From contig NZ_CADCVZ010000046.1 in assembly GCF_902806265.1 (NCBI RefSeq), forward strand, positions 1 through 64,000: a DNA stretch of 64,000 bases, given 5' to 3'. This document shows positions 5,938 through 25,503 of this stretch, one piece after another. How positions within the stretch are numbered: the stretch's first letter is position 1; every line of letters starts with the position of its first letter. The translations under genes and the position numbers were made by a program. The stretch comes from an uncultured Sphingomonas sp. GTDB lineage: Bacteria > Pseudomonadota > Alphaproteobacteria > Sphingomonadales > Sphingomonadaceae. Below the pieces are notes generated by a model, which was not told the DNA's origin, ran no database searches, and worked only from the letters and a program-made list of their open reading frames with translations.

Positions 5938-6374
5938 ACGACCAACGGCCGGTGAACATCGTCATGATCGAAGACGATGAAGGGCACGCACGCCTTATCG
6001 AAAAGAACATCCGGCGAGCCGGCATCTCCAACGCGCTGTGCCATTTCCTGAACGGTAGTGACGCGCTCGGATATCTGTTCGATCATCCTGACGGGCCCGG
6101 GCGCAACGGCCCGGCGCTGGTCCTGCTCGACCTCAATCTGCCGGACATGAGCGGCACGGACATCCTCGCCCGGATCAAGGGCGACGAGCAGCTCCGGCGC
6201 ACGCCGGTAGTGGTGCTGACGACTACCGACGACAAGCAGGAAATCCAGCGTTGCTACGACCTTGGCGCTAACGTCTACATCACCAAGCCGGTCAACTATG
6301 AAAGCTTTGCCGACGCGATCCGCCAGCTCGGCCTGTTCCTGGCGGTGATGCAGGTGCCCGACGCCGAGGCCTAA
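5934..6374 (+). CDS. Single-domain response regulator (Rcp1-like)
   Basis: This 146-residue protein is a lone receiver domain with no output domain. It has the acidic pair EDDEGH near the N-terminus, the phospho-acceptor Asp in LLDLNLPDMSG (about residue 66), a Thr in VVLTTTDD and the Lys in ITKPVN. Such proteins shuttle phosphate between kinases in a relay. The start is TTG, chosen because a strong ribosome site (gggggaggag) sits just upstream and the codon overlaps the kinase stop (TTGA). Translation is therefore coupled to the histidine kinase, and the next gene overlaps its stop by one base. Confidence 0.9.
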   Translation: MNDQRPVNIVMIEDDEGHARLIEKNIRRAGISNALCHFLNGSDALGYLFDHPDGPGRNGPALVLLDLNLPDMSGTDILARIKGDEQLRRTPVVVLTTTDDKQEIQRCYDLGANVYITKPVNYESFADAIRQLGLFLAVMQVPDAEA

Positions 6375-7408
6375 TGGATCAAGCCCGCGAGATTCTGTAC
6401 ATCGACGACGACGCCGGCCTTCGCAGGCTGGTGGAAAAGTTGCTCATTCGGCGGGGGCACAAGGTCGTCACCGCGGCAAGCGGCGCGCAAGGCATCGAGG
6501 CCGCGCGCTCCGGGCAATTCGATATGATCGCGGTGGACCATTACATGCCGGGAATGGACGGGCTCGCGACCCTGGCTGAGCTTCGCAAGCTGCCGCACTG
6601 CCCCCCAGTCGTCTACGTGACCGGATCGGAGGAAAGCCGAATTGCGGTCGCCGCGCTCAAGGCTGGCGCGCTTGATTATGTGGTGAAATCCACCGGCGAC
6701 GATTTCGTCGACCTGCTCGAGCGCTCCTTTTCGCATGCGCTTGCCACCTTGCGGCTCCAGCAGGCCAAGGCCGAAGCGGAGGAGGCGCTCAAGGCTTCGA
6801 ACGAGCGGCTGCAGACGCTGCTGCACGAGGTCAATCACCGCGTCGCCAACTCATTGCAGATCGTGTCCAACATGGTGGGGATGCAGGCGCGGCTAGTCCC
6901 CGAGGGCCCTGCCCGCGACGCCCTGGCCGATACCGAACGGCGCGTGCTCGCCATCGCCCAGGTGCACCGCCGCCTTTATGCTTCCGATGATGTGCAGAGC
7001 GTCGCCATGGACGAATATCTGGCCGCCCTGGTCGCACAGCTGGAGGAAACCTGGTCGAGCCAGCAGGCGCCGCGCGACATCCGCCTCACTGCCGAGCCGG
7101 TCAAGCTCCACGCGGAGAAGGCCATGAGCCTAGGGGTGATCGTTAGCGAGCTGGTCAGCAATGCTTGCAAATACGCTTATGCCGAGGACGAGCCGGGGGA
7201 AATCCGGGTCGACTTTCGGCGGGCAGGTGAGGCCGCCTTCCGCCTGTCGGTGGAAGACGACGGCTGTGGCTTCGACCAGTCGGCCGAGCCGCAAGGAACG
7301 GGGCTCGGATCGCGCCTGATCAACGCCATGGCCAAGGCGCTCTCAGCCAAGGTCGACTACGCGCCCGCGCCTCGCGGCGTCCGCGCTTCGCTGGAAGCGG
7401 CGATCTAG
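6374..7408 (+). CDS. Response regulator-histidine kinase hybrid (REC-HisKA_2)
   Basis: The 344-residue protein has an N-terminal receiver domain (IDDDAG, phospho-acceptor in MIAVDHYMPG near residue 55, Lys in YVVKST) joined by a coiled linker to a HisKA_2-type kinase with the H box HEVNHRVANSLQIVSN (His near 153) and an HATPase domain (ELVSNACKYAYA, EDDGCGFD, GTGLGSRL). HisKA_2/HWE kinases are typical of alphaproteobacteria and often feed the general stress response. It lacks membrane spans. The start overlaps the preceding stop (TAATG). The receiver is probably controlled by the CHASE3 kinase upstream, making this a two-kinase relay. Confidence 0.9.
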   Translation: MDQAREILYIDDDAGLRRLVEKLLIRRGHKVVTAASGAQGIEAARSGQFDMIAVDHYMPGMDGLATLAELRKLPHCPPVVYVTGSEESRIAVAALKAGALDYVVKSTGDDFVDLLERSFSHALATLRLQQAKAEAEEALKASNERLQTLLHEVNHRVANSLQIVSNMVGMQARLVPEGPARDALADTERRVLAIAQVHRRLYASDDVQSVAMDEYLAALVAQLEETWSSQQAPRDIRLTAEPVKLHAEKAMSLGVIVSELVSNACKYAYAEDEPGEIRVDFRRAGEAAFRLSVEDDGCGFDQSAEPQGTGLGSRLINAMAKALSAKVDYAPAPRGVRASLEAAI

Positions 7409-7411
7409 GCC

Positions 7412-8188
7412 TTAGTTTGATCCGCTGCCGGGTTCTGCCTGCTGGCGGTGCATGGCGGCCGTGGCAGCCTCAGGCAGAATGCCCGACGCCCAGACCTGCG
7501 CCTTGTTCTTGAGGCCGTAGACGACGCTCTCCTTGCCGTCCTTCATCGCCTCCCAACCGGTCTTGGCGACGTCCGCAGCGTCATCCTTCTTGGCCTGGCC
7601 GACCTTGGTGTCCTCCATGCCCGCGCGCTCGAAGAACTCGGTCTCGGTCGCGCCCGGCTTGAGGCAGGTAACGGTGACGCCCGTATCCTTGAGCTCGTTG
7701 TTCAGTGCCGCGGCGAAGCTGTCGATGAACGCCTTGGTGCCGTTGTACACCGCCTGGAACGAGCCCGCGAGGTGGCCGGCAATGGAGCCGACAATCAGCA
7801 CCTTGCCCTCGCCGCGCTGCACCATCTTCTTGGCCACCGGCTGGATCAGCAGCAACGTGCCGGTGACGTTGGTATCGACCACATGCCGCCACTCCTGCGG
7901 GCTTTGATCTAGGAAGGCGCCGCCCAACCCGTGCCCGGCGTTCGCCACCAGCACATCGACCTGGCGCTCACCCACCAAGTCGAGCAGTTGCCGGACCCCT
8001 TGCTCGGTCGCGAGGTCGGCCTCGATCGACTGCACGGACGCACCCGTCTCCTTGAGCCCGGCGCCGGCGTCGACCTGCGGCGTGTCCGACGCGACGATCA
8101 GGTCGTAGCCCTCACCCGCCGCCAGCTTGGCGAGCTCGAGGCCGATGCCGGACGACGCTCCGGTGACGATAGCAAGCTTGTTGGCCAT
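7412..8188 (-). CDS. SDR-family NAD(P)-dependent oxidoreductase
   Basis: The 258-residue protein shows the classical short-chain dehydrogenase layout: cofactor motif TGASSGIG (about residues 9-16), NAG motif (VLVANAGHG), catalytic Ser in VGSIAG and Y-x3-K in AVYNGTKAF. It carries out an NAD(P)-linked oxidation or reduction; the substrate is not deducible. It is the last gene of a three-gene unit, 12 bases after the zinc alcohol dehydrogenase, and its end lies only 3 bases from the end of the convergent histidine kinase gene. Its place behind a stress-type promoter fits a role in carbonyl detoxification, which is inference. Confidence 0.85.
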   Translation of the reverse strand: MANKLAIVTGASSGIGLELAKLAAGEGYDLIVASDTPQVDAGAGLKETGASVQSIEADLATEQGVRQLLDLVGERQVDVLVANAGHGLGGAFLDQSPQEWRHVVDTNVTGTLLLIQPVAKKMVQRGEGKVLIVGSIAGHLAGSFQAVYNGTKAFIDSFAAALNNELKDTGVTVTCLKPGATETEFFERAGMEDTKVGQAKKDDAADVAKTGWEAMKDGKESVVYGLKNKAQVWASGILPEAATAAMHRQQAEPGSGSN

Positions 8189-8200
8189 GATATGCTCTCC

Positions 8201-9421
8201 TTACGCCGTCGCCATCGCCGGCCGGGCGGGTTCCGCCCGCGGCTTGGCCATGTCCGGCTTCAGCACGATCTTGGTGTAGGTGTCCTGTTCGTCGTGCCAG
8301 TGGCGGTACATCTCCGCCGCCCGCTCCAGTGGCTCGCGGTGCGAGATCAGGAAGGTGGTATCTAGCTTGCCTTCCCCGATCAGCTCCAGCAGCGGCCGGA
8401 GGTAGCGCTGCATATGGGTCTGTCCGGTCTTCACCTGCAGCCCCTTCTCCATCAGCTGGCCAAGCGGGAACTTGTCCGCGAACCCGCCGTACACGCCCGG
8501 GATTGAGACCCGTCCGCCCTTGCGGCAGGCGATGATCGCCTGCCTCAGCGCATGCGGCCGCTCGGTCGTCAGATAGGCGTGCGCCTTGATCGTATCGATG
8601 ACGTTGTCGATCGCCATGCCGTGGCTTTCCATGCCCACGCAGTCGATCACCGCGTCCGGGCCGATGCCGCCGGTCATCTCCTTCAGGGCTTCGAGCACCT
8701 CGACTTCGCGGTAGTCGAGGATGTCGGCGCCCATCTGCTTGGCGAGCTTCAGCCGGCTCGGATAATGGTCGATGGCGATCACCCGGTGCGCACCGAGCGC
8801 GAAGGCGCTCTGGATGGCGAACAGGCCGACCGGGCCGCAGCCCCAGACGGCAACGGTGTCGCCTTCCTCGATGTCCGCCTGCTCGGCCGCCTGCCAGCCG
8901 GTCGGGAGGATGTCCGACAGGAACAGCACCTTGTCGTCTTCCAGCCCGTCGGGAATGACGATCGGACCCACGTCGCTGAACGGCACCCGGACATATTCGG
9001 CCTGCCCGCCGGCATAGCCGCCGGTAAGGTGGGCATAGCCGAACGCCGCCCCCATTGTGTGGCCCATCAGCGTCTCGGAAGCATCGCTGGTTTCTGCCGG
9101 GTTGGCGTTGTCGCAGCAACTGAACTGCGTCTTCTTACAGAAGAAGCAGCTGCCGCAGCTGATGGTGAACGGCACCACCACCCGCTGCCCCTTCTTCAGC
9201 GTCGACTTGGCGCCGGTCTCGACCACTTCGCCCATGAACTCGTGGCCCAGTATGTCGCCCGACCGCATGGTCGGGATGTAACCGTCATACAGGTGCAGGT
9301 CGGACCCGCAGATGGCGGTGGAGGTGATCTTCAGGATCGCGTCGCGCGGGTTGACGATCTCGGGATCGGGCACCGTCTCCATGCGAACGTCATGACGGCC
9401 GTGCCAGGTGAGTGCACGCAT
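8201..9421 (-). CDS. Zinc-dependent alcohol dehydrogenase (formaldehyde-dehydrogenase-like)
   Basis: The 406-residue medium-chain dehydrogenase has catalytic-zinc ligands Cys38 (ICGSDLH) and His60-Glu61 (GHEFMGEV) and the structural-zinc cysteine cluster between residues 89 and 103 (CGSCFFC...CC). The Rossmann region holds [13 protein letters not shown]. The length and the extended loop after the structural zinc resemble glutathione-independent formaldehyde dehydrogenase relatives rather than short ADHs. It oxidises or reduces an alcohol/aldehyde with NAD. It lies 11 bases after the SRPBCC gene and 12 before the SDR gene, so the three are probably one transcript. Confidence 0.85.
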
Positions 9422-9432
9422 CGGAAAACTCC

Positions 9433-10320
9433 TTAAACTCGAGCTTCGGTCGGGGATTCGGACTTGCGGCCCGAGGGGGAGGCGTTGACCGGGATCTCTC
9501 CCGTTTCCATCAGCTGCTTGAAGCGGCGGAGGTCGCGGCGCGCCTGCACCTGCGGCTCACGCTGCATGACCTTGGCGATCATCTGGCCGAATGTGCCCGC
9601 GGGCGGCTTGTAGCGGATCAGCAGTCGCACATAGGTGCCGCGGCCCGGCGGTGCGTCGGCGAACTCGACCCGGCCGTCCGTCTCTATCTGGCTGTCGGGT
9701 TCGCTGACCCAGGCGATGGTCTCGCCCGGCACATCCTCGACGATCCGGGTCGCCACCTTGACCGTTGCCCCGGCCGGAGCCTCGATGGTCCATTCGGACC
9801 GCACATCGTCCAGCTTGGTAATCTCCCGGACGTTGTCCATGAACTTGGGAAAGCCGGTGAAGTCGCGCCACACGGCGTAGAGTTCCTGCTTCGGCTTATC
9901 GATGGTCACCGTGCGGCCGACCAGCGCCTTGCCGTCCTGGTTGTTGCGCGAGTTCTCCTTGGCCTTGCCCCGCAGCACATGGTCGGGCGCGTCAGAGATG
10001 AGCGGTCCCTGGTAGCCATTGCTATCGGCGCCCTTGCCCCGGCCCTGCCGCGAGTCCTTGTTGCCGGTGAAGTAATAGGCCGCCCCCGCGCCCGCGGCGA
10101 CCAGCCCGAGGCCAAGCAGAGTCTTACCCGCGCCGCCGCCGCTCTTGCCGCCCGCACCCGACGCGCCGCGCTTGTCGCGTTGGGCATTCGCTTGACTGGT
10201 CCGCTTGCGGTCGTCGCCCGGCCCCTTCGCACGGGCGCGTTCGACCTCTTCCTGGTTGTTGCGGACAACTTCGTCCTCGACCGCTTCGGTGCGATCGTCG
10301 TCGTGGGTCTGGTTGGCCAT
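9433..10320 (-). CDS. SRPBCC-family protein with disordered N-terminus and one membrane span
   Basis: Of its 295 residues, the first 60 or so are charged, low-complexity and probably disordered. They are followed by a hydrophobic Gly/Ala-rich segment ([16 protein letters not shown]) and then, from about residue 130, an SRPBCC/START-like fold ([25 protein letters not shown]). Such domains bind hydrophobic ligands. Proteins of this shape are frequent next to dehydrogenases in stress-induced operons of alphaproteobacteria. It is first in the unit with the ADH and SDR and has an EcfG-like promoter just upstream. Ligand and localisation are unproven. Confidence 0.75.
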
Positions 10321-10348
10321 GGCGCCGCTTCTCCTGTCTGCCCCCGTT

Positions 10349-10374
10349 AACGAAAGCGGCGGTCAGCGGTTGCC
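10349..10374 (-). promoter_or_regulatory. EcfG-like (general stress sigma factor) promoter
   Basis: On the minus strand GGCAAC (10374-10369) is separated by exactly 16 bases from CGTT (10352-10349). The alphaproteobacterial EcfG consensus is GGAAC-N16/17-CGTT, so there is one mismatch in the -35 box. It sits about 30 bases upstream of the SRPBCC start. The same GGCAAC-N16-CGTT pattern occurs upstream of the alpha/beta hydrolase at 55700. Confidence 0.45.
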
Positions 10375-11600
10375 TATGTTTTTGGCCAGTTCTCCAGCAC
10401 TTCGACAAAGCGGGTGAGCCAAGCGTTGGTCTGGTGCCCATCCACCACCCGATGGTCGATGGTCAGGGTAACATAAGCCATCGGCCGAACGAGAATCGCG
10501 TCCTGTCCGCCGACCTCGCGCACCACCACTCGCTTCTCCAGCTTGCCTACGCCCAGAATCGCCGCCTGGCCCTGATGGAGGATGATCGGGGTGGCGAGCA
10601 GGCTACCCGATACGCCATGGTTGGAGATGGTGAAGCTGCCGCCTGAAACGTCCGCGCCGGTGAGCTTGCCCTCGCGCGCCCGTCGGGTGAGATCGTCCAG
10701 CTTAGCCCCGATCTCCTCTAGGCTGAGTGCCCCGGCGTTCTTTGCCACCGGCACCACAAGCCCCTTGTCGCCGAGCGCGGTGCCGACCCCGATGTCGATC
10801 GTCGGGGACACGGCGATACGGTCCTCCGCCCAGCGCCCGTTGATGGCTGGAGCGACGGCCATCGCCTCGGCTGCCGCCTTGATGAGGTAGGCGGTGTAGC
10901 TGAGCTTCTTGCCCCGTTCCGCTGCGGCCGCCTTGTGCGCGGCGATGGCCGAGAAGTCGGCTTCGAAGAGCGCGGTAACGTGCGGCGCCTCGCCCACGGC
11001 GCGCACCATGTTCTCGGCAATCTTCAAGCGCATGCGGTCGTGCGGGATGTCCTGCGCCGCCCAGTTGCTTTCCGCGATGCGCGGTTGCGCGATCGGCTTC
11101 TCGCCCGCGTCGACATGGCTGACGGTCGCCAGCTCGACTGCACGGTCCACGTCCTCGCGGGTGATCCGCCCGTTGCGCCCGGTGCCCTGAACGCGATCGG
11201 GGTCGATGTCGTGCTGGAGCAGCGCCCGGCGGACAGAGGGGGATAGCCTCGTCTCCACTTCCGCGCCGCCCTGAGCTTGTAGAAGGGCTGAGCTTCCCTC
11301 CTGCGATGCCGGTGAGGAGAAGGGCGATCCTTCGACAGGCTCAGAACTACGGCGTTCCTCATTAGCGGCAGCAGCGATCCGCCCAAGCACCGCGCCTGGT
11401 ACCGCCTCCGCATCCGTGTCGAGCAGGATTTCGCTCAGCACCCCCGCCGCCGGCGCCGGCACTTCCTGGGTCACCTTGTCGGTCTCGAGCTCCACCAGCG
11501 GGTCGTTCTCCGCCACCGTGTCGCCGATCTGCTTCAGCCAGGCGCGGACCACGGCCTTGGTGCCTTCCTGCTCAGCGGGAACGCGAACCTCGACGCTCAT
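10374..11600 (-). CDS. Dihydrolipoamide acyltransferase (E2 of a 2-oxoacid dehydrogenase complex)
   Basis: The 408-residue protein has one lipoyl domain with the lipoylated Lys42 (ELETDKVT), a linker, a peripheral-subunit-binding domain near residues 115-150 (LSPSVRRALLQHDIDPDRV) and a catalytic domain ending in the HRVVDGHQ motif. It passes the acyl group from E1 to CoA. The start overlaps the E1 stop by one base. The linker (about residues 86-111) is encoded by a repetitive inverted element rather than the usual Ala/Pro-rich sequence, giving SEPVEGSPFSSPAS and ALLQAQGGAE. No E3 gene is in the window. Sequence is of branched-chain type; the acyl substrate could also be phenylacetyl. Confidence 0.92.
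   Translation of the reverse strand: MSVEVRVPAEQEGTKAVVRAWLKQIGDTVAENDPLVELETDKVTQEVPAPAAGVLSEILLDTDAEAVPGAVLGRIAAAANEERRSSEPVEGSPFSSPASQEGSSALLQAQGGAEVETRLSPSVRRALLQHDIDPDRVQGTGRNGRITREDVDRAVELATVSHVDAGEKPIAQPRIAESNWAAQDIPHDRMRLKIAENMVRAVGEAPHVTALFEADFSAIAAHKAAAAERGKKLSYTAYLIKAAAEAMAVAPAINGRWAEDRIAVSPTIDIGVGTALGDKGLVVPVAKNAGALSLEEIGAKLDDLTRRAREGKLTGADVSGGSFTISNHGVSGSLLATPIILHQGQAAILGVGKLEKRVVVREVGGQDAILVRPMAYVTLTIDHRVVDGHQTNAWLTRFVEVLENWPKT
11268..11344. repeat. REP-like inverted repeat inside the E2 linker
   Basis: The plus strand carries gccctgagcttgtagaaggg (11268-11287) and, 41 bases on, ccttcgacaggctcag (11329-11344). The inner 16 bases of the arms pair at 14 of 16 positions. This is the 'ctgagc-ttgtcgaagg' palindromic element common between sphingomonad genes, here in frame within the E2 coding region. 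A related pair sits at 23969-24010. Confidence 0.7.
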
Positions 11601-13642
11601 CAGAAGCCCACCAGCCGGTCGATCTCCGCCCTGATCCGCGCCACGCTCGGCACCGCAGCTTCCAGCAGCGAGGGGTGATGCGGCGAGGGGATGTCCGGCA
11701 TGGTGACTCGCGCGACCGGCGCGTCGAGGTCGAGGAACGCCTCGTCGGCGACCACCGCCGCGATCTCCGCGCCGAAGCCGCCGGTACGCAGGTCCTCGTG
11801 CACGATCAGGCAGCGGCGGGTGCGGCGGACGCTGTCCAGCACGGCTTTCCGGTCCCACGGCATCAGCGTGCGCAGGTCAATCACGTCCGCGCTGATGCCC
11901 TCGGCCGCTGCCTCGCACCGCGGCACCATCGCGCCCCAGGTCACGATCGTGATCTTGCCGCCTTCGCGAGTCTTCTTCGCCCGCCCGAACGGCAGCACAT
12001 AGGCGTCGCCCGGCCACGGCCGCCGCGCCCAGCTGTCGTCCAGCATCGCACGATGCTCGAAGAACAGCACCGGATCGTTGCCGCGCAGCGCGCCGCGCAG
12101 CAGCCCGACCGCGTCCTCCGCGTTACTCGGCACCGCCACCCGCCAGCCTGGATTGTGCACGAACTGCACTTCGTTGGTCTGGCTGTGCCACGGATCGCCG
12201 CACTTGAAGAAGCCGCCCGGCACCCGCAGCACCATCGGCGCTGCGAAATGGTTGGCGGTGCGCCAGCGCATGGTCCCGCAGTCGTTGATCTGCTCGGTCG
12301 CCGGCTCGGCATATTTGCGGAACTGGATTTCAGGCACCGGCATCAGCCCGGCCAGCGCCATGCCGACGGCCCGCCCGACGATCCCTTCCTCGTTGAGGCT
12401 GGTGTCGAACACGCGGTCGTGGCCGAACTTCTCCTGCAGCCCGAGCGTCACCGCATGGACGCCGCCCTTGGGCCCGACGTCCTCGCCGAACACCAGCACC
12501 CGGGGGTTCGCCTCCAGCTCCCCGTCGAGCACGCGGCGGATGGCGGTCACCATGTTGATGCGCTGGCCCTCGGGCCGAGGCACATCGACGACCGGAGTGT
12601 CCAACCCGGCGCGACCGCCTACGGTAGCATGCTCACCCGAGAAGAAGACGTTATCGGCGACCTTCTCGATCGGCAGCACCGGCCGCGCCTCGGCCTCCTC
12701 GCGAGCACGCCCGACCTCCCAGGCGACTGCCTCTTCGAGCTGGGTCCACTCGCTGTCGCCGATCTGCCGCGCCGCGCAGTGCGCCTTGAGCTTCGGCAGC
12801 GGATCACGCGCCCACTCCGCCGCGATCACCTCTTGCGATTTGTAGGTCTGCGTGTCCTGATAGCTGTGCCCTTCGAGCCGCGGGACCGTGAGCCGCAGCA
12901 GCGCCGGCCTCCCCGCCCGGACATGCGCGACCGCCTCATCGACCAGCCGCGCCGCCTCGACCGGGTCAGTCCCGTCGCCGTTGAAGATCGTCAGCCCGCG
13001 GAAGCTCGCGAGATTGGCGGCGATGTCCTGCCCCGGCGTCTGATAGGTCGAGGGCACCGAGATGCCGTAGCCATTGTCCTCGACGTACAGCAGCAGCGGC
13101 AGCTGCTGCGTGGTGGCGACCGTCAGCGCCGACCAGAAGCCGCCGGTTGCGCAGCTCGCGTCCCCGCCGAGCACCACCGCAAGGGCGCCATCCCGGCCTT
13201 CGCCCAGCACTTCGTGCTTGTACTTGGCCGCCTGCGCCCAGCCGACCGCCGGAGTGTACTGCGCCCCCACCCCGCCGCTCATCGGCAGCGCGTGGCAGCC
13301 GCCCGGGTTGGGGTAGTTGAATACGACCCCAATGTCGCGCCCATCGGAGTAGCCGCCGGCCCGCCCCATGCCCGAGCCCAGCGCATCCGCCAGCGGCACG
13401 CCGAGCGCCAGCAGCAGCGGCCGCGAGCGGTAGTAGCCGCACGCCGCATCCCCATCGCGCAGCTTTAGGCCGAGCAGCACCTGCGCCAAGTCGTGCCCGC
13501 GCGCGCTGAACTGGTACATGACCTGCTTGGCGGGAACGAGCTCCTCTTCCTCGATCCGGTCCAGCTCCCGGCTGGTCAGCACCAGCCGCGCCACCTCCCG
13601 CCAGTCGAGATCGGTGGTAAAATGCGGGTCGGCGTCAGCCAT
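11600..13642 (-). CDS. 2-oxoacid dehydrogenase E1, fused alpha and beta subunits
   Basis: The 680-residue protein joins both E1 chains. The first half is alpha-like, with the thiamine diphosphate motif GDASCATGGFWSAL ending in DNGYGIS; the second half is beta-like (VFGEDVGPKGG, DTSLNEEGIVGRAVG, EIQFRKYAEP). It decarboxylates a 2-oxoacid and acylates the lipoyl group of E2. Separate alpha and beta genes are the textbook case; the fusion is known in several bacterial groups. The start overlaps the end of the aminotransferase gene by 8 bases and its stop overlaps the E2 start, so the three are translated together. Branched-chain 2-oxoacids are the default substrate guess; phenylpyruvate is a context-based alternative. 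Confidence 0.9.
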   Translation of the reverse strand: MADADPHFTTDLDWREVARLVLTSRELDRIEEEELVPAKQVMYQFSARGHDLAQVLLGLKLRDGDAACGYYRSRPLLLALGVPLADALGSGMGRAGGYSDGRDIGVVFNYPNPGGCHALPMSGGVGAQYTPAVGWAQAAKYKHEVLGEGRDGALAVVLGGDASCATGGFWSALTVATTQQLPLLLYVEDNGYGISVPSTYQTPGQDIAANLASFRGLTIFNGDGTDPVEAARLVDEAVAHVRAGRPALLRLTVPRLEGHSYQDTQTYKSQEVIAAEWARDPLPKLKAHCAARQIGDSEWTQLEEAVAWEVGRAREEAEARPVLPIEKVADNVFFSGEHATVGGRAGLDTPVVDVPRPEGQRINMVTAIRRVLDGELEANPRVLVFGEDVGPKGGVHAVTLGLQEKFGHDRVFDTSLNEEGIVGRAVGMALAGLMPVPEIQFRKYAEPATEQINDCGTMRWRTANHFAAPMVLRVPGGFFKCGDPWHSQTNEVQFVHNPGWRVAVPSNAEDAVGLLRGALRGNDPVLFFEHRAMLDDSWARRPWPGDAYVLPFGRAKKTREGGKITIVTWGAMVPRCEAAAEGISADVIDLRTLMPWDRKAVLDSVRRTRRCLIVHEDLRTGGFGAEIAAVVADEAFLDLDAPVARVTMPDIPSPHHPSLLEAAVPSVARIRAEIDRLVGF

Positions 13643-14843
13643 TGGCCGGCGGGCTATCCATCGTCTCGATCACCGCCGCACAGAAGCGGTCGATGGCCTC
13701 GTCGGCGATCCCGACCACGTTGAAGCGCCCGCTGTCCGCCATGTAGACGGCGTGGCGCTCGCGCAGCGACACCACCCGGGCGCGGCTGAGCGGCAGCATG
13801 GAGAACATGCCATACTGGTCGGCGATGAAGGCCAACCGCTCGTCGGAGGCGGCGATCCGCTCGCGCACCGTGGCGATACGCAGCCGCATCTCCTCTAGCT
13901 CGGCCTGCCACTCTGCGGTCAGCTCCGCGTCCTCCAGCACTGTCCGCACCGCCGCGGCGCCATGGTCGGGCGGCATCGACCAGGCTTCGCGCGCGATCTG
14001 CAGCACGTGCGCCATCGCGGTCGCGCTGCTCTCGGCTGAGCGGGTCTTGAGGAAGAAGCAGCCGACCCGGTCGCGGTACATGCCGAAGTTCTTGTCGCAG
14101 CTTTGCGCCACCAGCGCTTCGTCGCACGCGTCGAGCATCAGGCGGACGCCGACCGCATCTTCGTCGAGCCCGCGGCCGAACCCCTGGTAGGCAATGTCGA
14201 TCAGCGGCAGCAGGCCGCGCTCGGCGACCACGTCGACCACCGCGCGCCACCCCGCCTCGTCCAGGTCCGCGCCGGTAGGATTGTGGCAGCAGCCGTGCAG
14301 CAGCGCGATGTCGCCCGGCCGGGCCGCACCGAACGCGTCCATCATCGCAGGGAAGTTCAGCTGCGTCTGGTCGCGGTCGTAGTAGGGATATTCCACGATC
14401 TCGAGCCCCGCTCCGTGCGTCAGGGCCGGATGGTTGGGCCAGGTCGGAACGCCCATGATCACCCGTGCTTCCGGGTTGGCAACGGCGGCCAGCCGCAGCG
14501 CGAGATAGACCGCGCCCGTGCCGCCCGGCGCCTGCACGCCGGCGACTCGCTCGTCCGCCGCGTGGGCCCCAAGCACCAGCGGCCGCAGCAGCTCGGCGAA
14601 GCGCACGTCGCCGGCCCCGCCGAGATAGCCTTTGCTGTCCTGTTCCTCGAGCAGCCGCCGCTCGGCCGCCTTGATCGCCCCGAGCACCGGCGTGCGGCCC
14701 TCGCCGTTGCGGAATACGCCGACGCCCACGTCGATCTTCTCGGGCCGGCTCTCGGCCTTGGCGAGCGCGATCAGGGCCAGCAGCGAGTCGCTTCTCACCG
14801 GCGGCAGGGCGGACAGCGCGGGCGCTGCGGTGCGGGTCAACAT
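13635..14843 (-). CDS. Aspartate/aromatic amino acid aminotransferase (class I, AspC/TyrB type)
   Basis: The 402-residue PLP enzyme has the substrate-side motif GVGVFRNGEG, the PLP-binding region HGCCHNPTGADL and the Schiff-base Lys in SCDKNFGMYRDRVG, and ends with the Arg of GRFNVVGI that binds the alpha-carboxylate. These place it in the AspC/TyrB subgroup, which includes aromatic aminotransferases making phenylpyruvate from phenylalanine. It starts 53 bases after the paaE stop and overlaps the E1 start, so it links the paa genes to the 2-oxoacid dehydrogenase genes. Specificity for phenylalanine over aspartate cannot be told from the sequence. Confidence 0.85.
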   Translation of the reverse strand: MLTRTAAPALSALPPVRSDSLLALIALAKAESRPEKIDVGVGVFRNGEGRTPVLGAIKAAERRLLEEQDSKGYLGGAGDVRFAELLRPLVLGAHAADERVAGVQAPGGTGAVYLALRLAAVANPEARVIMGVPTWPNHPALTHGAGLEIVEYPYYDRDQTQLNFPAMMDAFGAARPGDIALLHGCCHNPTGADLDEAGWRAVVDVVAERGLLPLIDIAYQGFGRGLDEDAVGVRLMLDACDEALVAQSCDKNFGMYRDRVGCFFLKTRSAESSATAMAHVLQIAREAWSMPPDHGAAAVRTVLEDAELTAEWQAELEEMRLRIATVRERIAASDERLAFIADQYGMFSMLPLSRARVVSLRERHAVYMADSGRFNVVGIADEAIDRFCAAVIETMDSPPANG

Positions 14844-14895
14844 GGCCTCGGCTTAGACCCAGGCCTCCCGTTCCCGCAAGAGACCGAAGCTTCGC

Positions 14896-15969
14896 TCAGG
14901 CGTCGTAATCGACCGCCACGCCCGCGCCCTTAGGCACGGCCTGGCACGTCAGCACATAGCCCGCCGCGACCTCCTCGTCGGTGAGGCCGTAGTGCACCGC
15001 CATGCTGACCTCGCCCGCGGTCACCCGGGCGCGGCAGGTGGCGCATACCCCCGCTTTGCACGCGAAGGGCGCGGGCAGCCCGGCGCTGCGAGCACTGTCC
15101 AAGATGTTGCTACCGTCGAATGCCACCCTCCGCGTCCGGCCATCTATGGTGACGGCAATCGTCAGCCCCGACGCCGCCTGCTGCAGCTGCGCCATTTCCG
15201 CCGCCAGCGCAGCGGACGGCCGCCCGGCGGTAAAGCGCTCGACATGGATTCGGTCATGGCTCACGCTGCGCTCGACCAGCGCAGCCTCGGCCGAGTTCAT
15301 CATCAGGCCGGGTCCGCAGATAAACCAGGCGTCGACCTCACGGGGCTCGGACACGAAGGCGTCAATCGCCGCCCCCGCAGTCGGCTGGTCGAGCATGCCG
15401 TTCAGCAACTCGACGTCGCCTGCCTCGTCCGACAGGAAGTGGAACAGCTCGAACCGGCCGAGATAGCGGTCCTTCAATGCCGCCAACTGCTCCAGGAAGA
15501 TAATCGATCCGGCGTCGCGGTTGCCGTAGAACAGGGTCAAGCGGCTGTCCGGCTCCGTGCCCAGCGCGGTGCGGATCAGCGACATGATCGGGGTGATCCC
15601 CGAGCCGCCGGCGAAGCCGACATAGCGGCCGCTGCGCGCGGGATTGAAGTCGACCGTGAACGAGCCATGCGGCGGCATGACGTCGAGTTCGTCACCCGGC
15701 TTCAGCTCGCGCGCGACCCAGTTGCTGAACGCGCCGCCAGCGATCTGCTTCACCGTGACCTTAAGCTCGCCGTCCTGCGGCGCGGTGCACAGCGAGTAAT
15801 TGCGCCGTACTTCCTCGCCGCCGATGAAGGTACGCAGGGTGAGGTGCTGGCCTGCGCGAAAGCGGTAGGTGTCGGCAAGCTCGGGCGGGACGGCGAAGCG
15901 GATCGAGCGCGCTTCCTCCGTTTCCGGCACGATCTCAGCAATGGTGAGCCGGTGGAAATCCTTGCTCAA
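14896..15969 (-). CDS. paaE: Phenylacetyl-CoA epoxidase reductase subunit PaaE
   Basis: The 357-residue protein has a ferredoxin-NADP reductase part (FAD motif RRNYSLCTAP, NAD region GFAGGSGITPIMSL, later WFICGPGLMM) and a C-terminal plant-type [2Fe-2S] domain with C-x4-C-x2-C (CKAGVCATC) and a fourth Cys in VLTCQA. It passes electrons from NADPH to the di-iron PaaA. I chose the TTG start giving LSKDFHRLTIAEI because the family begins here; it lies 7 bases after the paaC stop. That tight spacing leaves no room for paaD, which separates paaC and paaE in E. coli. Confidence 0.92.
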   Translation of the reverse strand: MSKDFHRLTIAEIVPETEEARSIRFAVPPELADTYRFRAGQHLTLRTFIGGEEVRRNYSLCTAPQDGELKVTVKQIAGGAFSNWVARELKPGDELDVMPPHGSFTVDFNPARSGRYVGFAGGSGITPIMSLIRTALGTEPDSRLTLFYGNRDAGSIIFLEQLAALKDRYLGRFELFHFLSDEAGDVELLNGMLDQPTAGAAIDAFVSEPREVDAWFICGPGLMMNSAEAALVERSVSHDRIHVERFTAGRPSAALAAEMAQLQQAASGLTIAVTIDGRTRRVAFDGSNILDSARSAGLPAPFACKAGVCATCRARVTAGEVSMAVHYGLTDEEVAAGYVLTCQAVPKGAGVAVDYDA

Positions 15970-15976
15970 CGGGCGC

Positions 15977-16798
15977 TCACCACTTCGCGTCCGGATAGGT
16001 CCTCGGCAGATACTGCATGATCGCCAGCAAGTGGCCGAGGTGCTCGCTATGGTGCCCACGCCGGCCGCCCAGGATCGGGCGCTGGTCGTCCGGAACCGGC
16101 AACCCCGCCTCCCCCAGCGCCCGGGTGATTTCAGCCCGATACTCCGCCTCGAAGTCGCGCGGATCGACCGCGATCCCGGCCGAAACCGCCGCCTCGACCT
16201 CTGCATCTACCTCGAACAGCTCGGGCACGAAGCGCCAGCACCAAGCCAGGCCGTCGAGCGTGCGCTTGGTGCTTTCCTCAGTGCCGTCGCCCAGGCGAAT
16301 CACCCACTCGGCCGCAAGCTCGCGATGGTAGGCGACTTCCTTGACCGCTTTGGCCGCGATCCCGGCCAGCGCCTCGTCGCGGCTCGCCGTCAGCCGCTGA
16401 TAGAGCATGTGCTGCCAAGTCGAGAACAGCAGCTGGCGGACCATCGTCCGCGCGAAATCGCCGTTAGGCTGCTCCACCAGCCAGCAGTTGCGGAAATCGA
16501 GCACGTCGCGCTTGAATGCCAGGGTATCGGCATCGCCGGCCTCGTTCAGCAGCAGCGTCGCCTGCCCGATCAGGTCCAGCGCCACGTTGGCCAGGCTGAG
16601 GTCCACCTCCACGCTCGGCGCGTGCCCGCACCATTCGCTGAGCCGCTGGCCCAGGATCAGCGCATCGTCGCCAAGCCGCATCAAGTAACCCGCCCGCACC
16701 GGATCATGCGCATCGGACGGCGGGTCGAACGCGCCGTGTGGGCGGGTCTTCTCGGCGACTGCAACGTCTTCGGGGCGGATCGGCGGAAGAGAAGGCAT
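15977..16798 (-). CDS. paaC: Phenylacetyl-CoA epoxidase structural subunit PaaC
   Basis: The 273-residue ferritin-like protein has the family's LMRLGDDALILGQRLSEWCGH and DLIGQATLLLNEAGD helices and a Trp-rich C-terminal half. PaaC resembles PaaA but has lost the iron centre and serves as its structural partner in the PaaAC core. The start overlaps the paaB stop (ATGA), and the stop is 7 bases before paaE. Length is slightly above the E. coli protein. It ends shortly after the GRRGHHSEHLGHLLA motif that typically closes the family. Confidence 0.92.
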   Translation of the reverse strand: MPSLPPIRPEDVAVAEKTRPHGAFDPPSDAHDPVRAGYLMRLGDDALILGQRLSEWCGHAPSVEVDLSLANVALDLIGQATLLLNEAGDADTLAFKRDVLDFRNCWLVEQPNGDFARTMVRQLLFSTWQHMLYQRLTASRDEALAGIAAKAVKEVAYHRELAAEWVIRLGDGTEESTKRTLDGLAWCWRFVPELFEVDAEVEAAVSAGIAVDPRDFEAEYRAEITRALGEAGLPVPDDQRPILGGRRGHHSEHLGHLLAIMQYLPRTYPDAKW

Positions 16799-17079
16799 CA
16801 GATGTGCTTCACCTCGTCCGGGATCTCGTAAAAGGTCGGGTGCCGGTACACCTTGTCCGCCGCCGGCTCGAACAGCTGCCCGGCGTCATCCGGATCGCTG
16901 GCGACGATATCGCTTGAGCGTACGACCCACAGGCTCACGCCCTCCATCCGCCGCGTGTAGGTATCCCGCGCATGCCGCAGCGCGATCTCGGCGTCGGGCG
17001 CGTGGACGCTGCCGAAGTGGCGATGCGCCAGCCCGCCCTTGGAGCGGACGAAGACTTCCCACAACGGCCAGTCGCTCAC
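16798..17079 (-). CDS. paaB: Phenylacetyl-CoA epoxidase small subunit PaaB
   Basis: The 93-residue protein begins at a GTG giving [20 protein letters not shown], which is the conserved N-terminus of PaaB. The GTG overlaps the paaA stop (GTGA). Further family marks are [20 protein letters not shown] and a C-terminal [19 protein letters not shown]-type tail. PaaB bridges PaaAC units in the epoxidase. Upstream in-frame codons exist but lie inside paaA and code for unrelated sequence, so they were not used. Confidence 0.92.
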
Positions 17080-18065
17080 GCCGCGACCTTGGCCCGCCGC
17101 TTCGCCTCGTGCGCCGCCGCTGCCTCGCGCACCCAGGCGTTGCTCTCCCAAGCCTCGCGCCGTGCCGTGATCCGCTCCCGGGCAACGGGGCCCTCGCCGC
17201 GTACCACCGCGTAGAACTCGTCCCAGTCGATCTCACCGAAGTCGTAGCCGCCCTTGGCTTCGTTCCACTGGAGGTCGGGATCGGGCACCGTCAGCCCAAG
17301 GAACTCCGCCTGCGGCACGGTAATGTCGACGAACTTCTGCCGCAGCTCGTCATTGGTCTCGCGCTTGATCCGCCAGCGCAGCGACTGCGCGGTGTTGGGC
17401 GAGTTCTCGTCGGGCGGACCGAACATCATCAGTGAGGGCCACCACCAGCGGTTGAACGCGTCCTGCGCCATCTGCTTCTGCTCGGGCGTGCCGTTCGCAA
17501 GGCTCGTCATCGCCTCATAGCCCTGGCGCTGATGGAAACTCTCTTCCTTGCACACCCGGACCATCGCGCGCGCATAAGGCCCGTACGAAGTCCGCTGCAG
17601 CGGCACCTGGTTCATGATCGCCGCACCGTCGACCAGCCAGCCGATTGCCGGAATGTCGGCCCAAGTTAGCGTCGGATAGTTGAAGATTGTCGAGTACTTG
17701 GCCTTGCCCGAGTGCAGCGCCTCGATCATCTCTTCGCGGCTGGTGCCCAGCGTCTCGGCCGCGCAGTAGAGGTACAACCCATGCCCCGCCTCGTCCTGCA
17801 CCTTGGCGAGCAGGATCGCCTTGCGCCGGAGCGAGGGCGCGCGCGTGATCCAATTGCCCTCCGGCAGCATGCCGACGATCTCGGAGTGCGCATGCTGGCT
17901 GATCTGCCGGGTCAGCGTGCGCCGATAGGCCTCGGGCATCCAGTCCTTGGGCTCGATGAACTCGTCCGCCGCCACCCGCGCCTCAAAAGCGGCGAGCCGC
18001 TCCGGGTCCTCCGCGGGACCGATCGGCTGGACGTTGGGCTGCTTGGAAAGCTCGGTCGTGTACAT
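17076..18065 (-). CDS. paaA: Phenylacetyl-CoA epoxidase catalytic subunit PaaA
   Basis: The 329-residue protein is the di-iron oxygenase subunit that forms the ring 1,2-epoxide of phenylacetyl-CoA. Iron-ligand motifs are visible at DEAGH (about residues 91-95) and EESFH (about 174-178). The start was set at the ATG of [10 protein letters not shown], since upstream codons run into the divergent paaG region. It is first in a unit paaA-B-C-E followed by an aminotransferase and E1/E2. It diverges from paaG with only 51 bases between the two starts, which must hold both promoters. Confidence 0.95.
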
Positions 18066-18116
18066 AGACGTTAGATAGCGATTGACGGGCAAAGGTTCCA
18101 CCCCGACGGAAGCGGC
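18066..18116. promoter_or_regulatory. Divergent paaA/paaG promoter region
   Basis: The 51 bases between the ATG of paaA (minus) and paaG (plus) must contain two promoters and any operator. I see no clear palindrome for a PaaR/TetR-type repressor and no confident -35/-10 pair. The paaG ribosome site is weak (cggaagcggc before ATG). The position alone supports the call; boundaries are the gene starts. Confidence 0.4.
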
Positions 18117-18896
18117 ATGACCTACGAGACCATCCTGCTCGATCAGCGCGAAGGCATCGCCCGCGTCACCCTGAACCGGCCCGACCGGCTGAACAGCTTC
18201 ACCCGGCAGATGCACGCGGAGCTGACCCAGGCGCTCGACGAAGCCGCCGACGCCCGCGTGATCATCCTCACCGGCGCCGGCCGCGGGTTCTGCGCGGGTC
18301 AGGACCTCAACGACCGCGCGGTTGCGCCGCGCGAGGCCGTCGATCTCGGCGAGACGGTAGAGCAGAGCTGGAACCCGCTCGTCCGCCGCCTCGCCACCCT
18401 GCCTCAGCCGGTGATCGCCCGCGTGAACGGCGTGGCCGCCGGCGCCGGCGCCAACATCGCGCTCGCGTGCGACCTGATCGTCGCCGCACGCTCGGCCAAG
18501 TTCATTCAGAGCTTTTCGGCGCTAGGGCTCATTCCGGATAGCGGCGGCAGCTGGCACTTGCCCCGGCTGGTCGGCCAGGCCCGCGCCCTCGGCTTGGCGC
18601 TGACCGGCGAGCCCCTGCCGGCTGACCAGGCCGCCGAATGGGGCCTCATCTGGAAGTGCGTCGAGGACGAGCAACTCGACACTGAGGTCGACGCGCTTGC
18701 TCACAAGCTTGCCGGCCTGCCGCCGCTCGGCCTTGCCGCCATCAAGCGCCTAGTCCGCACCACCGACGAGCGCACTCTGGATCAGGAACTCGACCTGCAG
18801 CGCGACGAGATGCGCCGGCTCGGCTTCACCGCGGACTATCGCGAGGGCGTGGCGGCGTTCCTGGAGAAACGCGCGCCAAGCTTCACCGGCCGCTGA
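18117..18896 (+). CDS. paaG: 1,2-epoxyphenylacetyl-CoA isomerase PaaG
   Basis: The 259-residue crotonase-fold protein has the CoA-binding and oxyanion motifs [15 protein letters not shown] and [17 protein letters not shown], with the [22 protein letters not shown] stretch seen in PaaG. It converts the ring epoxide into oxepin-CoA and also acts later in the beta-oxidation steps. Location beside paaA and the N-terminal match ([12 protein letters not shown]) support PaaG rather than a general enoyl-CoA hydratase. It stands alone on its strand; the next gene is convergent and 5 bases away. Confidence 0.9.
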
Positions 18897-18901: not shown

Positions 18902-19342
18902 TTAGTAGCTCGTCCCGGTCGTGGCCGCGCGATCCGCATCACTGTCCCGCCGCATGAACCCGAAGTAGAGCGCTGGAACCGCCAGGATCAGGTGCAGCCA
19001 AACGTCGTGGCCAAAGATCGGCACCAGTCCGAACAGCGTGTTGATGCCCGGAATGAGACCAAGCACCGTCAGCAGCGCGTAGCTGACGCCCACCACCTTG
19101 GCGTAGGTCCGCGCCCCGCTCCAGCTGCGCGAAGCGGCGATGCCCCACAGGCCGTAGAGCAGGTGCAGGACGGAGTGGATGACGTTGACGGGGAATAGCC
19201 CAAGCGCGTCGCCGTAGAGCGTGTCGACCGCCATGTCCGGATGCCCTGGCCCAGCCGGCTGGAGCAGCCCGGGGATGAACCCGGAAGCGGCAATCAGCAG
19301 GAACAAGATGCCCCAGACCAGTGCGAAAGTGCGCGTGTTCAA
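18902..19342 (-). CDS. DUF4383-type four-helix membrane protein
   Basis: The 146-residue protein has four hydrophobic segments: residues 5-25, about 50-75 (with NVIHSVLHLLYGLWGIAA), 85-107 and 110-130 (FGHDVWLHLILAVPALYFGF). The HxxLHLxxG and W-L-H motifs in membrane spans are typical of DUF4383. No function is established for the family. It converges on paaG and diverges from the cold-shock gene; nothing ties it to phenylacetate use. Confidence 0.75.
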   Translation of the reverse strand: MNTRTFALVWGILFLLIAASGFIPGLLQPAGPGHPDMAVDTLYGDALGLFPVNVIHSVLHLLYGLWGIAASRSWSGARTYAKVVGVSYALLTVLGLIPGINTLFGLVPIFGHDVWLHLILAVPALYFGFMRRDSDADRAATTGTSY

Positions 19343-20276: not shown

Positions 20277-22301
20277 ATGAAGACTGCCCAACTGCTCAAC
20301 TATGCCCGCGACCGCTGGCTGCCCGGCGACGCGGTCAGTCTGGTCGAGCTGCCTTCGGCCATCGACGGTTCGCCCGTCGCGCTGACAGGGTCGGGCGGCC
20401 TCGATTTCGCGGGCATGGCAACCTATGCCCGCGAGGTCGGCGGCCCGGCGCTCCGGCGCATGACCTTTCACGATCGCGCCCGCATGCTTAAGGCATTGGG
20501 CCTGGCGATCCTCGCCCGCAAGGAAGAGCTGTACGAGCTCAACTACGCCACCGGCTGCACCCGCAAGGACGGCTGGATCGATATCGAGGGCGGCGCCGGC
20601 ACCCTCCTTTCCTTCTCCTCCAAGGGTCGCCGCGAGCTGCCCGACGCGCATGTGCTGCTCGACGGCCAATTGGAGCCGCTGAGCAAGTCGGGCGCCTTCG
20701 TCGGCCAGCACGTCTTCACCTCGCTGCAGGGTGTCGCGGTCCACATCAACGCCTACAACTTCCCGGTCTGGGGCATGCTGGAGAAGCTCGCGCCGACCCT
20801 GCTCGCCGGTGTTCCCGCGATCGTCAAACCCGCCAGCGCCACCGCCTGGCTGACTGAAGTTGCCTTCCGCGTGATGATCGAGGCAGGCGTGCTCCCGCCG
20901 GGTGCGGTGCAGTTGGTGGTCGGCGGCGTCGGCGACCTGTTCGATCATCTCACTCTGCAGGACATCGTCAGCTTCACCGGCTCGGCGGCGACCGCGCTCA
21001 AGCTCCAGACCCATCCGGTGATCGCGCGCGAGTCGGTCCGCTTCGTCGCCGAGCGCGACAGCCTTAATGCTTCGGTGCTTGGTCCTGACGCAGCGCCGGG
21101 CACGCCCGAATTCGACCTGTTCGTCCGCGAGGTCGTTACCGAGATGACGGTCAAGGCCGGGCAGAAATGCACCGCCATCCGCCGCGCGCTCGCTCCGGCC
21201 GAGCACCTCGACGCGGTTGAGGCGGCGATCCGCGATCGGCTGACCAAGATCATAGTCGGCGACCCGCGGGAAAAAGGCACCCGCATGGGCGCGCTGGTCA
21301 ACGTCGGCCAACGCGAGGACGTAAAGAAGCGGATTGCCGAGATCGCCGCGGCGGGCGCCCGCGTGGTGGCAGGCGATCCCGAGGCAAGCGTCGGCCCGGA
21401 CGGCGGGGCCTTTCTCCAGCCCGTGCTGCTCCGCGCCGATGATCCCTGGGCCTGCGCTGCCGCCCACGATGTGGAGCCGTTCGGCCCGGTTTCGACCGTC
21501 ATGCCCTACCGCGACCTCGACGATGCGGTGAAGCTCGCCAACCGCGGCCGGGGCAGCCTGGTGCTGTCGCTGTTCACCCACTCACCCGAAGCGGCGCGCG
21601 ATTTCGTGCTCGGCGCGGCGGCCTTTCATGGCCGCATGCTGGTGATCGACCGTACCAACGCCCAGGACTCGACCGGTCACGGCTCGCCCCTGCCCGTCCT
21701 CACCCATGGCGGCCCCGGCCGCGCGGGGGGCGGCGAGGAGATGGGCGGCGTCCGCGGTGTCATGCACTACATGCAGCGCACGGCGGTTCAGTCCTCGCCG
21801 GGAATGATCGCGGCCATTACCGATCAGTACATCCCCGGTGGCCCGAAGCACGAGATCGGGGTCCACCCCTTCCGCTGCCGCATGTCGGAACTGAGCATCG
21901 GCGACACGCTCAAGACTGCCAGCCGCACCGTCACGCTCGAGGACATCGAGCACTTCGCCCATTTCACCGGCGACACCTTCTACGCCCACATGGACGAGGA
22001 GGCGGCCAAGGCCTCGCCGGTGTTCGAAGGCCGGGTCGTCCACGGCTACCTGATCCTGAGCTTCGCCGCCGGCCTGTTCGTCGATCCCGACCCCGGCCCG
22101 GTGTTGGCCAACACCGGCCTGGAAAGCCTCCGCTTCCTGACGCCGCTTTACCCGGGCGACAGCATGCGGGTGGAGCTGACCGTGCGGGCCAAGTCATTGA
22201 AGAGCGGGGACACGGGCGTGGTCCGCTGGGCGGTGGAGATTTTCAATCAAAATGACGAGATGGTCGCGACTTACGACCTCCTGACGGAGAATGTGCCGTA
22301 G
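20277..22301 (+). CDS. paaZ: Bifunctional ring-opening enzyme PaaZ
   Basis: The 674-residue protein joins an aldehyde dehydrogenase domain (about residues 1-515, catalytic Cys298 in KAGQKCTAIRRA) to a MaoC hotdog hydratase domain (from about 530, with DTFYAHMDEEAA and FEGRVVHGYLILSFAAGLF). The hydratase opens the oxepin-CoA ring and the dehydrogenase oxidises the resulting semialdehyde. It lies 1.4 kb from paaG with a cold-shock gene in between, so it has its own transcript. Both active sites look intact. A ribosome site (aaagaggtg) precedes the ATG. Confidence 0.95.
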   Translation: MKTAQLLNYARDRWLPGDAVSLVELPSAIDGSPVALTGSGGLDFAGMATYAREVGGPALRRMTFHDRARMLKALGLAILARKEELYELNYATGCTRKDGWIDIEGGAGTLLSFSSKGRRELPDAHVLLDGQLEPLSKSGAFVGQHVFTSLQGVAVHINAYNFPVWGMLEKLAPTLLAGVPAIVKPASATAWLTEVAFRVMIEAGVLPPGAVQLVVGGVGDLFDHLTLQDIVSFTGSAATALKLQTHPVIARESVRFVAERDSLNASVLGPDAAPGTPEFDLFVREVVTEMTVKAGQKCTAIRRALAPAEHLDAVEAAIRDRLTKIIVGDPREKGTRMGALVNVGQREDVKKRIAEIAAAGARVVAGDPEASVGPDGGAFLQPVLLRADDPWACAAAHDVEPFGPVSTVMPYRDLDDAVKLANRGRGSLVLSLFTHSPEAARDFVLGAAAFHGRMLVIDRTNAQDSTGHGSPLPVLTHGGPGRAGGGEEMGGVRGVMHYMQRTAVQSSPGMIAAITDQYIPGGPKHEIGVHPFRCRMSELSIGDTLKTASRTVTLEDIEHFAHFTGDTFYAHMDEEAAKASPVFEGRVVHGYLILSFAAGLFVDPDPGPVLANTGLESLRFLTPLYPGDSMRVELTVRAKSLKSGDTGVVRWAVEIFNQNDEMVATYDLLTENVP

Positions 22302-25411: not shown

Positions 25412-25503
25412 GACCTACTCTCCATGTGCGCGGCGACGCTCGGGAATGAGCGCCTGTCCGCGAAAGGCAAGGGACATGGCGGCGTGAGAGCCCGCCAAGG
25501 CGC

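Follow-up and report, generated by a model that had tools for sequence, protein, structure and literature searches.

A fused-E1 2-oxoacid dehydrogenase complex as a proposed direct link between phenylalanine and the phenylacetyl-CoA epoxidase pathway of sphingomonads

Introduction

How does a bacterium equipped with the phenylacetyl-coenzyme A (phenylacetyl-CoA) epoxidase obtain the substrate of that enzyme when no match to PaaK, the enzyme that usually activates phenylacetate, is found in its genome? This question is raised by a stretch of 64,000 nucleotides from an uncultured Sphingomonas sp., referred to here as the window, which comprises bases 1-64000 of the 85.7 kb contig C46 in an assembly (G000) of 2.33 Mb, 64 contigs and 97% completeness. 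On its minus strand, the genes paaA, paaB, paaC and paaE are followed, in that order, by genes for an aminotransferase, a fused E1 and an E2. From sequence comparison we propose, with a probability of roughly 0.83, that this run encodes a direct route for phenylalanine into the phenylacetyl-CoA epoxidase pathway via a dedicated phenylpyruvate dehydrogenase complex, without free phenylacetate.

Entry into the Paa pathway is taken to be PaaK in the relevant excerpts of a review (PMC9493321) and of a 2026 survey (PMC13186573), and the corresponding excerpt of the GapMind paper (PMC9007349) does not mention a phenylpyruvate step of the E1/E2 type. No description of an E1/E2 complex linked to Paa was found in the open-licence papers searched.

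A preliminary description of this DNA had noted that PaaK is absent from the window, and tblastn at E<=1e-3 indeed finds no match to it there. The whole assembly and two genus-mates (G077 and G145) are likewise without a match at E<=1e-60, and no ligase that would mark a PaaK-dependent Paa pathway was recognised in any of the three. Since no PaaK was found in these three genomes of the genus, the E1/E2 complex would be their main or only source of phenylacetyl-CoA.

The gene run and the proposed route

All seven genes of the run lie on the minus strand, and each junction is an overlap or a gap of at most 52 bases. The features, in gene order, are as follows.

17076..18065, minus strand: paaA, catalytic subunit of the phenylacetyl-CoA epoxidase (TIGR02156, 525 bits against a cut-off of 280)
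16798..17079, minus strand: paaB, with a GTG start read from the sequence (TIGR02157, 145 bits against a cut-off of 85, scored from 17076 and hence without the GTG start codon)
15977..16798, minus strand: paaC (TIGR02158, 274 bits against a cut-off of 133)
14896..15969, minus strand: paaE reductase, TTG start (TIGR02160, 394 bits against a cut-off of 421; Fer2, FAD and NAD domains above cut-off)
14844..14895, minus strand: gap of 52 bases between paaE and the aminotransferase gene, the widest of the run, read from the sequence
13635..14843, minus strand: class I aromatic amino acid aminotransferase (NF006719, 465 bits against a cut-off of 377)
11600..13642, minus strand: fused E1 alpha-beta, the proposed phenylpyruvate dehydrogenase E1 (PF00676, PF02779, PF02780; a subfamily of its own)
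10374..11600, minus strand: E2 acyltransferase with lipoyl and E3-binding domains (PF00364, PF02817, PF00198)

The preliminary description had drawn the genes from paaA to E2 as a run in one direction, which holds, with its widest gap corrected from 53 to 52 bases. The paaA/paaB overlap is GTGA, the paaB/paaC and E1/E2 overlaps are TGATG, the aminotransferase and E1 genes overlap by 8 bases and paaC is spaced from paaE by 7. No terminator-like or promoter-like match falls in the 52-base gap. The stretch 9300-18500 contains three terminator-like matches and one promoter-like match, numbers that shuffled sequence reaches as well. The genes from paaA to E2 would be co-transcribed.

Curated NCBIfam cut-offs are passed by four products of the run (PaaA, PaaB, PaaC and the aromatic transaminase). 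PaaE falls 27 bits under its cut-off, yet it is matched over the model's full length. Neither E1 nor E2 reaches an NCBIfam cut-off; both are identified by Pfam domains above cut-off, which are those of a 2-oxoacid dehydrogenase complex: E1_dh and transketolase-like domains in E1, and lipoyl, E3-binding and catalytic domains in E2.

The epoxidase set PaaABC(D)E is complete because PaaD is encoded outside the run, on contig C61 (29073-29468; 169 bits against a cut-off of 108). Among 149 evenly drawn genomes of the same family (the family set), PaaD scores above cut-off in exactly the 15 that have PaaA; its gene lies between paaC and paaE in 12 of these and is relocated in the other three, those of the window's genus. 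The missing paaD could therefore be dismissed as the sign of a broken pathway. On C61, paaD directly follows the genes for HPPD and paaJ, with phhA near by (25491-29468, or 4453-8475 of locus L169), so that some pathway genes have genes of aromatic amino acid breakdown as neighbours, which we count in favour of the proposed route.

In this route, the aminotransferase would convert phenylalanine to phenylpyruvate, as its family suggests. The mechanism by which E1, E2 and E3 cooperate is established for the 2-oxoacid dehydrogenase class. Following it, the fused E1 would decarboxylate phenylpyruvate, its presumed substrate, on thiamine diphosphate and load the lipoyl arm of E2 with the phenylacetyl group; E2 would transfer the group to CoA, yielding phenylacetyl-CoA, CO2 and NADH overall; and a putative shared E3 would reoxidise the lipoyl group with NAD+. 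According to the part of a study drawn on here, the complexes of Sinorhizobium meliloti have an E3 in common and are likely to exchange it (PMC12542648). PaaABCE would then epoxidise phenylacetyl-CoA, PaaG and PaaZ would carry on, and flux from phenylalanine would enter the pathway through the complex.

Co-occurrence of E1, PaaA and PaaK

The distribution of the three proteins was followed in the family set. E1 occurs in 14 of the 149 genomes, at 68-100% identity over most of its length, and the next long match does not exceed 38% (matches to the beta part alone reach 48%). PaaA is above cut-off in 15 genomes, and PaaK is matched at E<=1e-60 in 8, seven of which also pass the curated cut-off. 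E1 and PaaA are found together in 13 genomes (Fisher 9e-16, with kinship ignored, as in the other counts given here). Counted by genus (n=96), PaaA is present in all 10 genera with E1, and E1 in 10 of the 12 genera with PaaA. The lone genome with E1 and without PaaA (G124) is a fragmented assembly in which a contig ends inside E1.

All seven PaaA genomes without PaaK have E1. Among the eight PaaA genomes with PaaK, six have E1 and two do not, and no PaaA genome of the family set lacks both; the only two without E1 are thus genomes that have PaaK. This substitution of E1 for PaaK, a pattern of gene content, is the strongest point for the proposed route, and the E1/E2 complex apparently stands in for the usual phenylacetate-activating enzyme. 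The distance between the genes points the same way: E1 and paaA are less than 10 kb apart in 7 of 7 PaaK-less genomes, compared with 1 of 6 that have both PaaK and E1 (p 0.005). In the other five genomes with both, E1 and paaA are far apart on the same contig in two and on different contigs in three, where the distance is unmeasurable and linkage is possible.

Gene order around E1 and the possibility of a chance join

A scan of GTDB-species contigs, with E1 as the query, returned 304 relatives, and the best 80 of these, at 70-95% identity, were analysed with up to 10 kb on each side of E1 in view. These named loci are the top of the list and do not sample it at random; some of their genomes recur in the family set. 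They come from sphingomonads, Caulobacterales, Hyphomonadaceae, Rhizobium/Sinorhizobium/Ensifer, Bosea, Candidimonas, several Pseudomonas and marine gammaproteobacteria. E2 follows E1 in 77 of the 80, and in the remaining three the contig stops in E1 or fewer than 90 bases beyond it. Genes of the paa set are in view at 54 loci (a count that excludes L140, where the end of paaZ at the contig edge is under the coverage threshold), an aminotransferase of the same type at 48 and PaaK at 6.

The exact one-strand order paaA-B-C-E-aminotransferase-E1-E2 is found at 24 of the 80 loci, all of which fall with the window in one supported clade of the tree. The preliminary description had named loss of the gene order in relatives among the observations that would speak against its reading, and these 24 loci show that this did not occur. 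Elsewhere, the same genes are joined differently. In Allosphingosinicella (L115), aminotransferase-E1-E2 is followed by paaZ-paaG and then the paaA operon; in two Hyphomonadaceae (L153 and L154), E1-E2-aminotransferase precedes paaZ-paaG-paaA; in Pseudomonas sp. RIT-PI-S (L138), the order is paaK, paaABCE, paaZ, E1-E2; and in some Sinorhizobium (L145 and L149), paa genes occupy one flank of E1-E2. That the joining recurs in different orders speaks for function rather than chance.

This bears directly on the alternative that the preliminary description itself had named, namely that a branched-chain 2-oxoacid dehydrogenase was placed by chance beside paa genes. The beta part of E1 shares 47% identity with the branched-chain E1 beta that the genome encodes elsewhere, and a scan of eight genes upstream of E1 or of the aminotransferase gene identified Lrp/AsnC regulators in six (L114, L123, L137, L139, L151 and L155); such regulators are typical of branched-chain operons too. 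Lrp is ruled out as a constant neighbour by the HTH_3 protein at L070 and the fusion of ArsR with a methyltransferase at L068. Against the chance join stand the 54 of 80 linked loci in their several orders, the presence of PaaA in 13 of the 14 genomes with E1 and a separate branched-chain complex on another contig of the genome. We therefore reject it as an explanation of the neighbourhood, and a branched-chain role for the complex appears very improbable.

The E1 subfamily and the separate branched-chain complex

The sequence of E1 leads to the same view. A single chain of 680 residues combines its alpha and beta parts, and the five closest solved chains are a mixture of pyruvate and branched-chain E1 beta chains (227-255 bits), so that its closest relatives are not specifically branched-chain E1s. 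With the branched-chain E1s of Pseudomonas (1qs0/2bp7) and Thermus (1umb) it shares domains, chemistry and the conserved His and Glu positions. It differs in the fusion and in scoring only 234 bits to 2bp7 with its beta part, compared with 554 for the branched-chain beta chain of the same genome. The latter belongs to a canonical operon on contig C10 (E1 alpha, E1 beta, E2), the alpha chain of which scores 494 bits against the Pseudomonas 2-oxoisovalerate dehydrogenase, and a pyruvate dehydrogenase is encoded on contig C2. With branched-chain and pyruvate complexes of its own elsewhere, the genome therefore possesses the complex of the window as an additional one, and the canonical operon makes a branched-chain role for it a disfavoured candidate.

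Glu 418, His 259 and His 486 are invariant in 90 of 90 distinct sequences of the E1 family, at positions that we take to be catalytic. Two segments distinguish the family from the two branched-chain E1s compared.

12290..12319, minus strand: first fingerprint, E1 residues 442-451, RKYAEPATEQ (ADYIYPGYDQ in those two)
12185..12214, minus strand: second fingerprint, E1 residues 477-486, GFFKCGDPWH, ending at His 486 (GGGI(F/Y)GGQTH in those two)

In the first, R442, K443, Y444, P447, A448, E450 and Q451 are present in 90 of 90 sequences, A445 in 88, E446 in 70 and T449 in 55, which gives the family pattern RKYA(E/D)PAxEQ. In the second, nine of ten positions are identical in all 90 and F478 is found in 87, and the residues ahead of the conserved His differ from those of the two branched-chain E1s in all 90. 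From what is generally known of the enzyme class, both segments may line the substrate pocket. In a tree obtained by a quick search, with very long outgroup branches, 87 rows of the E1 family are separate from branched-chain and pyruvate E1s.

Evidence that weighs against the route, and other sources of phenylacetyl-CoA

Several observations weigh against a dedicated phenylalanine route. The first concerns PaaK, alongside which E1 is kept in six genomes of the family set and in two (G161 and G293) of a wider set of 385 genomes of the class, which was searched with a limit of E<=1e-120 for E1 and a stricter one of E<=1e-150 for PaaK. In this class set, PaaA is above cut-off in 48 genomes, PaaK is found in 59 and E1 in 4. 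All four E1 genomes have PaaA, compared with 48 of 385 overall, which counts in favour of the route. PaaK accompanies PaaA in 40 of the 48, including the two just named. Of the remaining eight, the window genome and G465 have E1, and the other six, four of them from one family, have neither protein; E1 is therefore not a general answer to missing PaaK.

In five of those six, a fused indolepyruvate ferredoxin oxidoreductase of full length is encoded (NF009588/NF009589, 1157-1163 residues); this type of enzyme is known to turn phenylpyruvate into phenylacetyl-CoA in Phaeobacter, and we count its presence in favour of the route. The sixth, G174, has PaaA without PaaK, E1 or a full-length fused oxidoreductase, and shows a partial oxidoreductase match near a contig end; its source of phenylacetyl-CoA may be lost in assembly gaps. 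By the length of open frames (620-672 residues, with none in G055), the fused oxidoreductase was seen neither in G465 nor in the seven family-set genomes that have E1 and lack PaaK, the gene of the window genome being the only one among these frames assigned to a family (KorA-type, TIGR03710). No fused enzyme of the Ior1 type was thus found in the window genome. Frames of fused length are present in three genomes that have both PaaK and E1 (G085, G056 and G052). With fused-enzyme counts that cover PaaA genomes, the pattern, which is not proof, suggests that PaaK, Ior or E1/E2 supplies such genomes with phenylacetyl-CoA.

The window genome also encodes KorAB, at about 74 kb on C46, where its sole PF01558 match is a KorA-type gene of 660 residues. 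Phenylacetyl-CoA might accordingly come from a KorAB-type oxidoreductase, or from a decarboxylase, an aldehyde dehydrogenase and an unrecognised ligase, with E1/E2 in an auxiliary role, and a ligase search that covered PaaK only leaves room for decarboxylases and non-PaaK ligases. Set against this are the absence of fused-length frames from the PaaK-less E1 genomes and the occurrence of KorA-length frames in PaaK genomes as well, so that these do not track the loss of PaaK. We regard such a source as improbable.

Phenylalanine in the window genome can probably also be consumed via tyrosine, since phhA is present. This gene was found in 8 of the 25 genomes searched, the window genome among them, and not in G053, G129, G055 or G465; an argument for the route from the absence of phhA consequently fails for the window genome.

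The aminotransferase is ordinary. Its best solved relative is an aromatic aminotransferase (1ay4, 328 bits), followed by aspartate aminotransferase variants (315 bits). A relative at E<=1e-60 occurs in 96 of the 149 family genomes, as a single copy in 94 of these, and the gene is not in view at 32 of the 80 named loci. The suggestion in the preliminary description that it turns phenylalanine into phenylpyruvate stands as far as the match to the aromatic transaminase family goes; its weaker part lies in those widespread relatives, which give no support to a specialised enzyme. It is probably a general aromatic aminotransferase that was drawn into the run.

Finally, no paa gene was seen near E1 at 26 of the 80 loci; for 16 of these the view extends over the complete 10 kb on each side, and the others are cut by contig ends. 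At such loci the complex may serve another function. These 16, which include rhizobia and Pseudomonas, fit a broad aromatic 2-oxoacid dehydrogenase that acts also or mainly on indolepyruvate or 4-hydroxyphenylpyruvate, with an output that is only partly phenylacetyl-CoA. The presence of HPPD and phhA, by which 4-hydroxyphenylpyruvate is probably made, agrees with such an enzyme; the proximity of E1 to paaA in all seven PaaK-less sphingomonad genomes of the family set speaks against it. Overall, this broader activity seems unlikely, if still worth serious consideration. The direct conversion of phenylpyruvate to phenylacetyl-CoA that the preliminary description had put forward draws its support from comparative genomics, through co-occurrence, substitution for PaaK and linkage, and would be the better account of the run.

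Neighbouring genes, plasmid copies and a repeat in E2

Two further genes of the pathway lie on the other side of paaA.

18117..18896, plus strand: paaG isomerase, divergent from paaA (TIGR02280, 383 bits against a cut-off of 345)
20277..22301, plus strand: paaZ, bifunctional ring-opening enzyme (TIGR02278, 983 bits against a cut-off of 563)

The start of paaG is 51 bases from paaA, and paaZ is further along. Between them, at 18902-19342, is a gene for a DUF4383 protein with a relative in only two compared loci. E2 is followed on its own strand, after 53 bases, by a gene for an SRPBCC protein and then by one for a zinc dehydrogenase. These and an SDR gene were rejected as members of the pathway, since only 8, 7 and 2 close relatives, respectively, have them next to E2.

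One sequence feature was noted within E2.

11271..11344, no strand assigned: pair of palindromic repeats within the part of the gene that codes for the E2 interdomain linker, with two matches to CTGAGCYTGTCGAAGG

In the window, four matches to this motif are found at <=2 mismatches, compared with 0.07 expected by chance. Of 76 named loci, 6 have the motif in their E2 gene; it was found in none of the 80 E1, 49 aminotransferase and 48 paaA genes compared.

Orthologues of E1 are also carried on 92 plasmid records, 76 of them from Sinorhizobium, and an Lrp/AsnC regulator is annotated upstream of E1 or of the aminotransferase gene on plasmids of Paracoccus, Shinella and S. meliloti. One replicon of S. 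meliloti Ak57 carries both E1 and paaA, at a distance of 42 kb. The orthologue of the laboratory strain S. meliloti 1021 is on pSymB (NC_003078, 27348-29372) and is presumably SMb20020. In the part of the study consulted, SMb20020 is listed as a 2-oxoglutarate dehydrogenase E1 component (PMC12542648). On plasmid pAK1 of Paracoccus sp. AK26 (L177, 5850-15224), genes for a VOC-family protein, an FAD-binding oxidoreductase, an aldehyde dehydrogenase and an aminotransferase stand ahead of E1/E2, with an Lrp regulator between, and this locus possibly belongs to a different aromatic or amino acid route that uses the same complex.

Comparison with known systems and significance

Compared with the canonical PaaK-type pathway of E. 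coli, PaaABCE, PaaG, PaaZ, PaaD and PaaJ are all present here; the differences are that the window assembly has no PaaK match and that paaD and paaJ are on another contig. PglB/PglC, which we take to be pyruvate-dehydrogenase-like, serve the biosynthesis of an antibiotic in Streptomyces, where their operon also encodes phenylglycine enzymes. In the section of the source used, they are termed phenylpyruvate dehydrogenase of pristinamycin biosynthesis (PMC10685826), and the likeness to the complex of the window, that of being named as acting on phenylpyruvate, is one of description. A functional counterpart is Ior1 of Phaeobacter, an indolepyruvate ferredoxin oxidoreductase which, according to excerpts of two papers, converts phenylpyruvate directly to phenylacetyl-CoA (PMC5577590, PMC7497051), the same net step that would feed PaaABCE without PaaK. 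It differs in belonging to the 2-oxoacid:ferredoxin class, without a lipoyl E2; the fused enzymes of its family examined here, Ior1 itself not among them, have 1154-1163 residues.

What is new, as far as our searches go, is the pairing of a known enzyme class with a known reaction, in an E1 subfamily that is undescribed in the open-licence literature searched. We think it reasonably likely that fused E1 and E2 form a dedicated phenylpyruvate dehydrogenase and so add to PaaK and Ior a third supply of phenylacetyl-CoA, which is linked to NAD and based on a lipoyl group, and that where PaaK has been lost the Paa pathway serves phenylalanine only and never meets free phenylacetate. Such a supply would be spread in sphingomonads, Caulobacterales, Hyphomonadaceae, rhizobia (including S. 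meliloti) and some Pseudomonas.

PaaK spends ATP in activating phenylacetate, and from established biochemistry the proposed route would save this ATP and may keep free phenylacetate out of the route altogether. Proteins of the subfamily are currently annotated as pyruvate dehydrogenase or as transketolase-domain proteins, and if the proposal is true, those carrying these labels would gain a function, among them the pSymB orthologue of S. meliloti 1021. In PaaK-less genomes, the E1/E2 subfamily would fill the missing first step of the pathway.

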